Origin: Mycobacterium sp. NBC_00419
Lineage (GTDB): Bacteria > Actinomycetota > Actinomycetes > Mycobacteriales > Mycobacteriaceae
DNA: 64,000 nt
NCBI RefSeq assembly: GCF_036023875.1
Contig: NZ_CP107931.1
Span: forward strand, 5,518,001-5,582,000
Reading direction: 5' to 3'
In this document: positions 38,289 to 43,594 of the stretch, piece by piece
How positions within the stretch are numbered: the stretch's first letter is position 1
How the letters are laid out: each line of letters begins with the position of its first letter
Position numbers and translations under genes: made by a program
The notes under the pieces: generated by a model
Seen by the model: the letters and a program-made list of their open reading frames with translations, nothing else
Told to the model about the DNA's origin: nothing
Databases searched by the model: none

Positions 38289-38861
38289 TCAGCTCAGCAG
38301 CATTCGCGCGGAACGTTCGAGCTTCGAGGAGATCTCGGTATAGGAGGCATAGCCCATTCCGGCGCGCACCAGGGCGCCCGCGTACAGCTGCTCGAGAGAT
38401 TCGACGATCTCTGAATCTGGCTGTGCGCCAAGGGCTGTGCACAACCGGTGGTGAATCTCCCTGCCGATGCGAAAGCGCAGGTGCTCGACGTCGGGATCCT
38501 TGCCCAGCAGCGCGGTGGTCACCGCACCGGCCAGTTCAGGTTCGTCGGCGACCAGCAGGGCGATGTTGCGCAACACCACCACCACACGATCCACCGGATC
38601 GGCGGAGTCGAACGGGGGAGCGGGCGTCGACGCCATCCGGCGCCAGAACACCTCGGCGACCAAATGCTCTTTGGACGAGAAATAGGTGTATGCCGTGGCC
38701 GCGCCCACACCGGCCTCGGCGGCGACCATCCGAATTGTCAGTCCGGCGAAACCTTCTCGGCTCAACACCTCCACCGCAGCACGGCCGAGGCGTTCCACGG
38801 TGGCCGCCTGCTTGGCTGTCAACCGGCGCCGTGTCGCTTCGCGAGCTACCGGTTCAGACAC
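38289..38861 (-). CDS. TetR-family regulator, candidate controller of the glycosyl/methyl cluster
   Basis: 190 residues from GTG 38861. N-terminal TetR helix-turn-helix with LTIRMVAAEAGVGAATAYTY and FSSKEHLVAEVFWRRM; a helical ligand domain follows. A motif at the start codon (38853-38871) is nearly identical to one upstream of the glycosyltransferase operon, so this protein probably autoregulates and controls that cluster. DoxX is encoded downstream on the same strand. The start is uncertain because there is no clear ribosome site; it may be leaderless. Confidence 0.85.
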   Translation of the reverse strand: MSEPVAREATRRRLTAKQAATVERLGRAAVEVLSREGFAGLTIRMVAAEAGVGAATAYTYFSSKEHLVAEVFWRRMASTPAPPFDSADPVDRVVVVLRNIALLVADEPELAGAVTTALLGKDPDVEHLRFRIGREIHHRLCTALGAQPDSEIVESLEQLYAGALVRAGMGYASYTEISSKLERSARMLLS

Positions 38862-38871
38862 ATGTCCGGAC
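38853..38871. promoter_or_regulatory. Candidate shared operator, TetR side
   Basis: The site reads TTCAGACACATGTCCGGAC. Its 13-base core CAGACACATGTCC is repeated, on the opposite strand, at 42769-42789 upstream of the glycosyltransferase gene. It spans the TetR start codon and lies 72 bp before the methyltransferase ATG at 38944. Repetition is seen; binding by this TetR is inferred. Confidence 0.55.
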
Positions 38872-38943
38872 GCTACTACAACGCATACCGGTCGACAAGA
38901 TGCGCGCTGGCCATCCGGCATGGCGACACGATAGGTTCAGAGC

Positions 38944-39624
38944 ATGAGCCGTACCGAGACTGCGCTTGCCGCGCAAACTTCCCGACTGTTTGATCTGGCC
39001 GACGAAGTGATCGGGTTCATGCCCGCCGACGAAGGCCGCGCGCTGTTCGACGCGGCGACGCGCTACCTCGATCACGGGGTTGCGGTGGAGATCGGTACCT
39101 ACTGCGGCAAGTCCACTGTCCTGCTCGGCGCGGCAGCCGCCGCGAGCGGCAGCGTGCTCTACACGATCGACCACCACCACGGGTCCGAAGAGCACCAGCC
39201 CGGGTGGGAGTTCCACGACACCTCGATGGTCGACCCGGTCAGTGGCCGCTTCGACACGCTGCCCACCTTCCGTCGCACGCTGGATGCCGCCGGGCTCGAC
39301 GACACCATCGTGGCCGTGGTCGGTAAGTCGCCGGTGGTCGCGCGCGGGTGGCGTACTCCGCTGCAGATGTTGTTCATCGACGGCGGTCACAGCGAGACCG
39401 CCGCCCAGCAGGACTTCGACGGTTGGGCCAAGTGGGTCTCGCCCGGCGGCACGCTGGTCATCCACGACGTCTTCCCCGACCCGCGTGACGGTGGCCGGCC
39501 GCCCTACAACATCTATTGCCGCGCACTGGAATCCGGTCATTTCACCGAGGTGAGCGCGTTCGGTTCGTTGCGGGTCCTCGAGCGCACCTCCGGATCGGCT
39601 GGCGAGGAACCCGTCAGCGCCTGA
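38944..39624 (+). CDS. Class I SAM-dependent methyltransferase
   Basis: 226 residues with a Rossmann methyltransferase core: motif I-like VAVEIGTYCGKSTVLLGAAA, LYTIDHHHGSEEHQPGW and LFIDGGHSETAAQQDFDGW, typical of the Methyltransf_24 group that includes sugar and cell-wall O-methyltransferases. Divergent from the TetR gene (82 bp) and its stop overlaps the convergent toroid-protein gene by 11 bp. Substrate unknown; the cluster suggests a glycan or glycolipid. Confidence 0.85.
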   Translation: MSRTETALAAQTSRLFDLADEVIGFMPADEGRALFDAATRYLDHGVAVEIGTYCGKSTVLLGAAAAASGSVLYTIDHHHGSEEHQPGWEFHDTSMVDPVSGRFDTLPTFRRTLDAAGLDDTIVAVVGKSPVVARGWRTPLQMLFIDGGHSETAAQQDFDGWAKWVSPGGTLVIHDVFPDPRDGGRPPYNIYCRALESGHFTEVSAFGSLRVLERTSGSAGEEPVSA

Positions 39625-40690
39625 CGCACTCACAGTCGTAGTCGCCCTCGAGTCCGCGGGGCAGCTCGGCTGCACGGAAGATCCCACTGCCGCCGGTGGT
39701 GACCGACAGCGCGTCGGCGGCCAGGATCACCGCCGCGCCGGTCCAGGTGGTCCGCTCCACCGGCCAGCGTTTGCCGTCGGAGAAGACCAGCCCGGTCCAG
39801 TACGAGCCGTCGGCTTCCCGGAGGTGCTGCATGGCACCGAACTGAGTCAGTGCGCGGCGGCGTTCACCCATGGCGTCCAGCGCCATGACGAATTCGCAGG
39901 TCTCCGCACCGGTGACCCAGGGCCGGTCGTCGACGCACCGGATACCCAGACCGTCGACGACGAACTCGTCCCAGCGGTCGGCGATGCGCGAACTGGCGTG
40001 TGAGCCGCGAACGGCGCCACCGAGAATGGGGTAGTACCAGTCCATCGAGTGGTGCGGTTTCTCGGTGAAGGAATCCGGGTGCTCGCTGATCGCGTGGCCC
40101 AGCCGGCCGAGCGCCACCTCCCACTCGGGCTGCGGGTCGTCGACGAAGTCGGCCAGTGCGAGTGCGCACCGGATGCTGTGGTAGACGCTGGCGCATCCGG
40201 TGAGTAGCGCCTCGGGCAGCGGCCCGGAAGGGCCTTGGGCCCAATAGATTTCGCCTGTGCCGGCTTGGAGTTCCAAGACGAAGTCGATGGCCGCGCGGAC
40301 AGTCGGCCACATCTGCTCGCCGAACTGGCGGTCACCGGTCACCAGCACGTGGTGCCAAATCCCGGTGGCGATGTAGGCGCAGAAGTTGCTGTCGCTGTTG
40401 GCGTCCTCGATGACCCCGCGGCGGTACTGGATGGGCCATGATCCGTCGGCACGCTGCTCGCGCCGGCACCAGTCATAGGCGGCGCGTGCGGGCTCGGTCA
40501 ACCCGGCCGCGCTCAAGGCCATGGCGCACTCGACGTGGTCCCAGACATCGGTATGCCCGGTCTCCGACCACGGGATCTCACCCGACGATTGCTGCACCGC
40601 GGCAATGGATTCCGCGGTCTGGCGGCACTGTTGCGGAGTGAGGATCCCGGCGATGCCGGGCACGCCGTCGAGATCAGGTTGCCGTGCCAT
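39614..40690 (-). CDS. Alpha/alpha-toroid 'prenyltransferase-like' protein
   Basis: 358 residues rich in Trp and Gly-containing turns (RADGSWPIQYRRGV, EADGSYWTGLVFSD, HTDVWDHVECAMALSAAGL), fitting a six- or seven-hairpin alpha/alpha toroid as in squalene cyclases, protein prenyltransferase beta subunits and glycan-processing enzymes. I see no DxDD terpene-cyclase motif, so the label 'prenyltransferase' is structural, not functional. It overlaps the preceding methyltransferase gene by 17 bp, forming a tight operon with the GT4 gene. Confidence 0.75.
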   Translation of the reverse strand: MARQPDLDGVPGIAGILTPQQCRQTAESIAAVQQSSGEIPWSETGHTDVWDHVECAMALSAAGLTEPARAAYDWCRREQRADGSWPIQYRRGVIEDANSDSNFCAYIATGIWHHVLVTGDRQFGEQMWPTVRAAIDFVLELQAGTGEIYWAQGPSGPLPEALLTGCASVYHSIRCALALADFVDDPQPEWEVALGRLGHAISEHPDSFTEKPHHSMDWYYPILGGAVRGSHASSRIADRWDEFVVDGLGIRCVDDRPWVTGAETCEFVMALDAMGERRRALTQFGAMQHLREADGSYWTGLVFSDGKRWPVERTTWTGAAVILAADALSVTTGGSGIFRAAELPRGLEGDYDCECVRR

Positions 40691-42673: not shown

Positions 42674-42768
42674 GGTCATGCTCCTGAACTGTCCGTGATC
42701 GACGCGGCCGGGTTACCCGTCAGGCTCGCATGTGTCATGGTTGAGGTATCCGGACATCGGCGGCGAGC

Positions 42769-42789
42769 TGTCTGGACATGTGTCTGGAC
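42769..42789. promoter_or_regulatory. Candidate shared operator, glycosyltransferase side
   Basis: Two direct copies of TGTCTGGAC (42769-42777 and 42781-42789) are separated by ATG; on the opposite strand the joined site reads GTCCAGACACATGTCCAGACA in two overlapping parts. It shares a 13-base core with the site at 38853-38871. A further half-site (ATCCGGACAT, 42748-42757) lies nearby. Position: 96 bp before the glycosyltransferase start and 73 bp before the divergent hydrolase ATG. Confidence 0.55.
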
Positions 42790-42862
42790 TATAATTCGAT
42801 TAGCTACATGTTGCAACGTAAGTACTGGGCGAACAGCTCGGCCAGCGACTATTTTCAGCCCT

Positions 42863-43594
42863 ATGTACTACGAGTGGGAATGGCCGGCCCAGGGTGTGTA
42901 CCGATGTCGGTTGCCGTTCCTCGACGTCACCGTCGGTCTGGTTCAAGGCCGCGACAAGGTTGTCCTGATCGACTGCGGGACAACGCTTTTAGAAGCAGCT
43001 CAGCTCAGCAGCGACATCGCCGACATCACCGGTGCGGCGGTCACCCACATCGTGATGACCCATCATCACTTTGACCACATACTGGGAGCGCCGGGTTTCC
43101 CAGCGGCCCTCAGCTACGCGCCACCGGCCGTCGCGCGGGCCCTGACCACCGGGATCGGTGAGGTTCGCGCCCATGCCCTGCAGTACGGGGCGGACGTGGG
43201 TGAGCTCGACCGGGCGATCGCCGCGGCTCGGCCGCCCGACCACATCATCACCGAGGCCGACCTCGATCTCGGTGACCGAACCATCCACGTCGAACACCCC
43301 GGCCGCGGCCACACCGACCACGACCTGGTCGTGGTCGTCGCCCCGGTCGGTGCCCAGGAGCCCACCGTGGTCTTCTGCGGTGACCTGGTCGAGGAATCCG
43401 CCGACCCGGCGATCAACGCGGAGTCCGACGCGCGGGCCTGGCTGGGCACCCTGGATCGTGTTCTCGCACTCGGCGGTCCGGACGCGGTGTACATCCCTGG
43501 ACATGGCGCGGCCGTCGACGCCACGTTCGTGCAGCGCCAGCGAGACTGGCTGGCAGCCCGCGCTATTCCTGCCCGTCCGGGGCCAACAGATTGA
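42863..43594 (+). CDS. MBL-fold metallo-hydrolase
   Basis: 243 residues from ATG 42863. Metallo-beta-lactamase fold with zinc motif HHHFDH, a later GRGHTDHD His, the bridging Asp in FCGDLVEE and PGHG near the C-terminus. Substrates of this family vary widely (thioesters, lactones, nucleic acids). Divergent from the glycosyltransferase gene, sharing the candidate operator. Its 3' end overlaps the convergent GntR gene by 32 bp. Confidence 0.88.
   Translation: MYYEWEWPAQGVYRCRLPFLDVTVGLVQGRDKVVLIDCGTTLLEAAQLSSDIADITGAAVTHIVMTHHHFDHILGAPGFPAALSYAPPAVARALTTGIGEVRAHALQYGADVGELDRAIAAARPPDHIITEADLDLGDRTIHVEHPGRGHTDHDLVVVVAPVGAQEPTVVFCGDLVEESADPAINAESDARAWLGTLDRVLALGGPDAVYIPGHGAAVDATFVQRQRDWLAARAIPARPGPTD

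Follow-up and report, generated by a model that had tools for sequence, protein, structure and literature searches.

Does the TetR-family gene that stands beside a set of methyltransferase and glycosyltransferase genes in Mycobacterium sp. NBC_00419 control that cluster, and through which DNA sites would it do so? The stretch analyzed here, the window, comprises 64,000 nt of this genome (NZ_CP107931.1, positions 5,518,001-5,582,000), and genome-wide scans covered all 5,615,436 bp. An initial annotation, made from the sequence alone, had linked a TetR gene, two methyltransferases, a GT4 glycosyltransferase and a "toroid" protein through a repeated 13-base core; these four gene calls (TetR, the methyltransferases and GT4) were right. 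We refer to the TetR protein beside the cluster as TetR-A, to its paralogues as TetR-B and TetR-C, and to genomes and loci without TetR-A as A-less. Judged by sequence, the enzymes are those of the published methylmannose polysaccharide (MMP) cluster. We propose, with a probability of roughly 0.78, that TetR-A is a local repressor of MMP biosynthesis and of itself, acting via two conserved sites.

The 13-mer CAGACACATGTCC occurs at 38855-38867 (+) and, inverted, at 42774-42786 (-). As first annotated, it has no other copy, neither in the window at up to 2 mismatches nor in the genome, which holds two exact copies and none of the reversed control. Each core is part of a longer palindrome, the first of them at the start of the regulator gene:

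38289..38861, minus strand: tetR-A, encoding a 190-aa TetR-family regulator with a Pfam TetR_N match; its GTG start (38859-38861) lies inside site 1.
38852-38871, no strand assigned: operator site 1, between tetR-A and meT1, a 20-bp imperfect palindrome, GTTCAGACACATGTCCGGAC.
42770-42789, no strand assigned: operator site 2, on the manT promoter, a 20-bp imperfect palindrome, GTCTGGACATGTGTCTGGAC.

Allowing up to 3 mismatches, the consensus GTCYRGACAYRTGTCYRGAC matches five places in the genome, of which the MMP sites show 0 and 1 mismatches and the remaining three show 2, 3 and 3. The two MMP sites are thus the only matches within 1 mismatch. Because the reversed control gave 7 places at the same threshold, these two best matches stand out and the total count does not. 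A looser scan with TNGGACANNTGTCCNG at 1 mismatch returned 15 matches in the forward and 8 in the reverse direction, where the reversed control had 5 in each. We discount the exact 13-mer repeat as evidence by itself, given that the window contains 331 inverted 13-mer pairs (175-245 in five order-2 Markov sequences); dinucleotide shuffles gave a mean of 1.91 matches to CAGACACATGTCC at up to 2 mismatches. The operator rises above chance by its palindrome, its two promoter positions and its conservation across species.

Conservation was read from 80 named loci, the top-ranking ones among at least 572 retrieved with MeT1 as the query; contig ends cut some of them, so counts of neighboring genes over the 80 are lower bounds. 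The TetR-A gene is divergent from meT1 in 44 of these loci, and 36 are A-less. Site 1 is present in all 44 TetR-A loci with 1-3 mismatches. Its best match in each of the 36 others has 6-9 mismatches, a range that also takes in 376 of 395 stretches drawn at random from these loci (of the remaining 19, some are probably true sites). Of the 39 TetR-A loci in which the region upstream of manT was readable, 38 have site 2 with no more than 1 mismatch, and L034 has it with 3. Both sites are better conserved than their surroundings: site 1 has 1.71 bits per column against 0.76 and 1.08 in its flanks (44 loci), and site 2 has 1.76 against 0.42 and 0.83 (38 loci). The regulon proposed in the initial annotation came through both the genome-wide search for random copies and the comparison with related species.

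TetR-A and the cluster are also inherited together. Among 148 genomes of the genus (E up to 1e-50 for TetR-A and up to 1e-60 for MmpH, the "toroid"), TetR-A occurs in 81 and MmpH in 119, and all 81 fall within the 119. The operator 20-mer at up to 1 mismatch was likewise found in 81 of the 148 genomes, and its reversed control in 1. The two genes are 714-7903 bp apart in all 79 TetR-A copies that share a contig with mmpH; four copies lie on contigs without it. One second TetR-A-like copy (G030:C61:9556-10119), on a contig without mmpH, has one in-frame stop. A genome scored as lacking TetR-A, G109, actually carries the gene, cut by a contig end.

Both sites coincide with predicted promoters:

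38870..38898, minus strand: predicted tetR-A promoter, with -35 TTGTCG (38893-38898), a 17-bp spacer and -10 TAGCGT (38870-38875).
42788..42816, minus strand: predicted manT promoter, with -35 TTGCAA (42811-42816), a 17-bp spacer and -10 TATAGT (42788-42793).

The manT promoter fits TTGNNN-17-TANNNT in 39/39 TetR-A loci, and the last two bases of its -10 are the first two of the operator. At tetR-A, a -10 of the form TANNNT stands at the same offset in 44/44 loci, and a TTG -35 lies 17 bp away in 41 of them. Here site 1 overlaps the end of the -10, the predicted transcription start and the start codon. In all 44 TetR-A orthologues the operator contains an in-frame [AG]TG-TCN start, which makes up part of its right half. 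Since the start codon is inside the operator, the tetR-A message is predicted to be leaderless, and operator bases would double as the opening codons of the protein. A conserved palindrome thus sits on the regulator's own promoter and on a neighboring one, as is characteristic of TetR proteins with local operators, and conservation and promoter placement together support the TetR-linked operator pair. With both sites fused to sigma-A-type promoters in the same geometry, the arrangement is best read as steric autorepression together with repression of manT-pmeT3-mmpH. Control of meT1 by the operator is uncertain, because in this genome the predicted -10 of meT1 (TAGGTT) is about 6 bp from its ATG, at a clear distance from site 1. 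Across species, site 1 precedes meT1 by 24-114 bp.

In the mechanism we favor, a TetR-A dimer would bind the 20-bp palindrome. At site 1 it would cover the -10, the transcription start and the GTG start codon of the putatively leaderless tetR-A, and at site 2 it would directly occupy the -10 and the start of the manT-pmeT3-mmpH operon. RNA polymerase would be blocked at both promoters, which would amount to repression, rather than activation, of the regulator and of the polymerase/hydrolase operon. TetR-A would be released by a ligand, for which an acyl-CoA is the likeliest candidate; MMP would then be made when acyl-CoA rises. With a putative repressor gene and two exact operators in hand, the timing of MMP synthesis becomes directly testable, and the pathway would gain a control switch.

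The genes of the cluster are the following:

38944..39624, plus strand: meT1, MMP 1-O-methyltransferase, divergent from tetR-A (match to 6g7d, E 1e-104).
39614..40690, minus strand: mmpH, MMP alpha-endomannosidase, the former "toroid" (7qsj, E 2.8e-183; catalytic region conserved).
40674..41405, minus strand: pmeT3, putative 3-O-methyltransferase (Pfam Methyltransf_11, 1e-22; place in the conserved cluster, PMC9883506).
41399..42679, minus strand: manT, the GT4 gene (7qsg, E 8.5e-211; LKG and YEGF stretches conserved).

The reading frames of the three-gene operon manT-pmeT3-mmpH overlap, and meT1 is transcribed towards it. Based on structure and domain matches and on locus comparison, all four proteins are present in the published order, meT1-mmpH-pmeT3-manT, described as MSMEG_6481-6484 (PMC9883506). 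In the numbering of that study, placed on our alignment, the Asp47/Asp50 pair of MmpH and Lys240 and Glu313 of ManT are conserved, and the window copy is an ordinary member of the described cluster. The cluster had initially been annotated as undescribed with an unknown product. Neither point is supported, since by the match the predicted product is a known one and the toroid an endomannosidase. The squalene-cyclase-like assignment of the toroid is not supported either, given the 7qsj match with its conserved Asp pair; MmpH itself has no Pfam match, and NCBIfam gives a weak oligosaccharide-amylase match below its cut-off. The suggested pathway for a methylated glycan or glycolipid holds for the glycan, which would be MMP, and fails for a novel glycolipid, which the MeT1, MmpH and ManT matches exclude.

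MmpH has been described as an (alpha/alpha)6-barrel hydrolase, and for MMP a role in modulating fatty acid metabolism has been proposed, with an mmpH mutant tying MMP to growth at 15 °C; homologues were named in several genera, and clusters were detailed mainly in mycobacteria (PMC9883506). The cluster described in that study does not include the TetR gene or its operators, and none of the words "regulator," "operon," "promoter," and "transcription" occurs in its main text. In the open-licence literature, we found no regulator of the MMP genes, and neither TetR-A nor its operators. What appears to be new here is the regulator with its operators. Its proposed kind, a local TetR autorepressor, is familiar; an operator in the start codon is unusual and common to the paralogues. 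Some species have about 1-7 kb of additional sequence separating meT1 from mmpH, and TetR-A stays beside meT1 (L033, L034, L040, L041, L055, L057, L060, L067, L068, L070, L074, L158, L159, and L160).

TetR-A has the features of a TetR repressor, namely a TetR_N helix-turn-helix (PF00440, 9.9e-14, scored on the longer frame) and an all-helical ligand domain in its AlphaFold2 model (mean predicted local distance difference test score, 87.6). The longer frame begins at an alternative ATG at 38921, which is the less likely start. The closest structure to the model is KstR (Rv3574), the cholesterol catabolism repressor, with 22-24% identity. TetR-A was rejected as a KstR orthologue, scoring 48.4 against a cut-off of 280 in NCBIfam NF033703, and its operator is presumably unlike the KstR consensus. 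FadR of Thermus thermophilus, an acyl-CoA-responsive TetR protein, has 21-22% identity, with a Z score barely above those of the other TetR proteins listed.

If TetR-A reads both sites, what becomes of them where it is absent? On a tree of ManT and MmpH (74 rows), its presence and absence need two changes, one for a clade of 32 rows and one for the pair L015/L030. The named members of that clade are mostly slow growers. No TetR-A orthologue was found elsewhere in the 25 of 36 A-less genomes that were searched whole (drafts, with up to 111 candidates scored per genome). The best matches there have 42-48% identity, and 23 of the genomes also have one at 36-43%; these are the paralogues TetR-B and TetR-C. 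The manT operator is kept nonetheless: of the 34 A-less loci, 28 share one identical 20-mer, AACTGGACATGTGTCCAGAC, another two are a single base away from it, and the remaining four (L015, L017, L030, and L048) diverge further. Its conservation in the 34 loci is 1.87 bits per column against 1.15 and 0.82 in the flanks. A clade with the repressor lost and the operator kept is a natural experiment in regulatory rewiring. In L017 (M. angelicum) and L048 (M. intermedium) the manT site has a changed core, GGACACCTGTCC; these are the two of the 25 A-less genomes with a single TetR paralogue match (no TetR-C at E 1e-10).

This orphan operator raises the question of a different reader. The sites might be read chiefly by TetR-B, a regulator like Rv0767c with aldehyde dehydrogenase and P450 neighbors and a wider regulon, with TetR-A as a secondary or lineage-specific partner. 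In 20 of the 25 A-less genomes the TetR-B start codon is covered by TTGGACATGTGTCCAG, with close variants in the rest, and the core of this element is that of site 2; TetR-B could therefore, on sequence grounds, read the orphan manT operator. In the NBC_00419 genome, tetR-B (at 2139320) is divergent from an aldehyde dehydrogenase gene and is followed by P450 genes, and two operator-core copies lie between the divergent pair (G000:C1:2139109-2139270, L152), one over the tetR-B start codon and the second at the dehydrogenase start. PMC10470581 lists a matching order, Rv0767c-aldA-cyp123, which makes TetR-B the likely Rv0767c orthologue by gene order, not by direct alignment. A published palindrome, motif X, has been ascribed to the Rv0767c orthologue; it is found near the start codon of that gene and near 14 operons that include TetR genes (PMC6593523). 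One of these TetR genes, G155_29025, might be TetR-A. Motif X, published as a figure logo like the Rv0767c motif of PMC4482099, is probably the GGACAYRTGTCC core. Rv0767c and G155_05115 thus resemble TetR-A as paralogous TetR proteins with a palindrome near the start codon, the Rv0767c-like gene here carrying the GGACAYRTGTCC core, but they differ in their target genes, aldehyde dehydrogenase and P450s (PMC6593523, PMC4482099). Against TetR-B as the principal reader, site 1 is missing from all 36 A-less loci, TetR-A never occurs without MmpH in the 148 genomes, and in this genome one half of each MMP site reads TGTCT, which sets the two apart from the TetR-B start-codon site. We consider it unlikely.

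TetR-A itself is no Rv0767c orthologue, as its genome has a separate TetR-B (44% identity) and TetR-A forms a distinct clade (support 99/96). The paralogues share the start-codon arrangement: [AG]TG-TCN starts occur in 44/44 TetR-A, 32/32 TetR-B (rows, representing 30 different genes) and 25/25 TetR-C sequences, as scored by an in-frame [AG]TGTC, the left half-site being seen in the consensus. A tentative but possible scenario follows for the slow growers. All three paralogues would embed the operator in their own leaderless start codon, and after the loss of TetR-A, TetR-B would have captured the manT operator and so brought MMP synthesis into a P450/aldehyde or sterol-responsive regulon. Further TetR homologues with CTGGACACATGTCCAG over an ATG-TCC start were seen in L134 (G176; 35% identity), near a ferredoxin-type oxidoreductase, and in L156 (G175; 28%), near molybdopterin oxidoreductase and acyl-CoA dehydrogenase genes.

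Could the conserved blocks instead be nothing but strong sigma-A promoters, with a -10, a -35 and a leaderless start and no repressor at all? The -10 and -35 are indeed conserved at both places, and A-less manT promoters keep a fitting -10 in 31/34 and a -35 at 16-18 bp in 33/34. However, the conserved 20-mer reaches 18 bp past the -10, is palindromic and alike at two promoters, and at tetR it vanishes together with the regulator, which makes this explanation very improbable. A chance 13-mer repeat in a GC-rich window, for which the many inverted pairs there might speak, is refuted with near certainty because the sites are conserved in tens of species, and the two exact copies in 5.6 Mb both lie on promoters.

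The comparison also reached beyond the genus. In a family-wide sample of 201 genomes from 31 genera, MmpH relatives occur in 99 genomes and 14 genera, 13 of the 99 being in the window's own genus. Among 20 of the 86 MmpH loci outside the genus that were read, six have a TetR-A relative (52-74% identity), all with the start-codon operator, and in three of these (L171, L172, and L174) it adjoins meT1. Site 2 was found at manT in none of the 20 (best matches, 6-9 mismatches). Thus, the link of TetR-A to MMP looks older than the genus, and the manT operator seems to have been added in mycobacteria. In G220, G237, and G279, all of one genus, the match to the MmpH relatives falls into two separate parts, as it would in a split or interrupted gene.

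Two further neighbors had been named in the initial annotation, and both were rejected as conserved partners. The DoxX gene, suggested as a possible redox or membrane partner, is near the cluster in 18 of the 80 loci and in 0 of the 36 without TetR-A. The metallo-beta-lactamase (MBL)-fold hydrolase divergent from manT is present in 13 of 80, and a TATAAT at 42790 (+ strand) makes no convincing promoter for it. This hydrolase gene (window 42863-43594) is kept in close relatives and in L032, and it may share the site 2 region.

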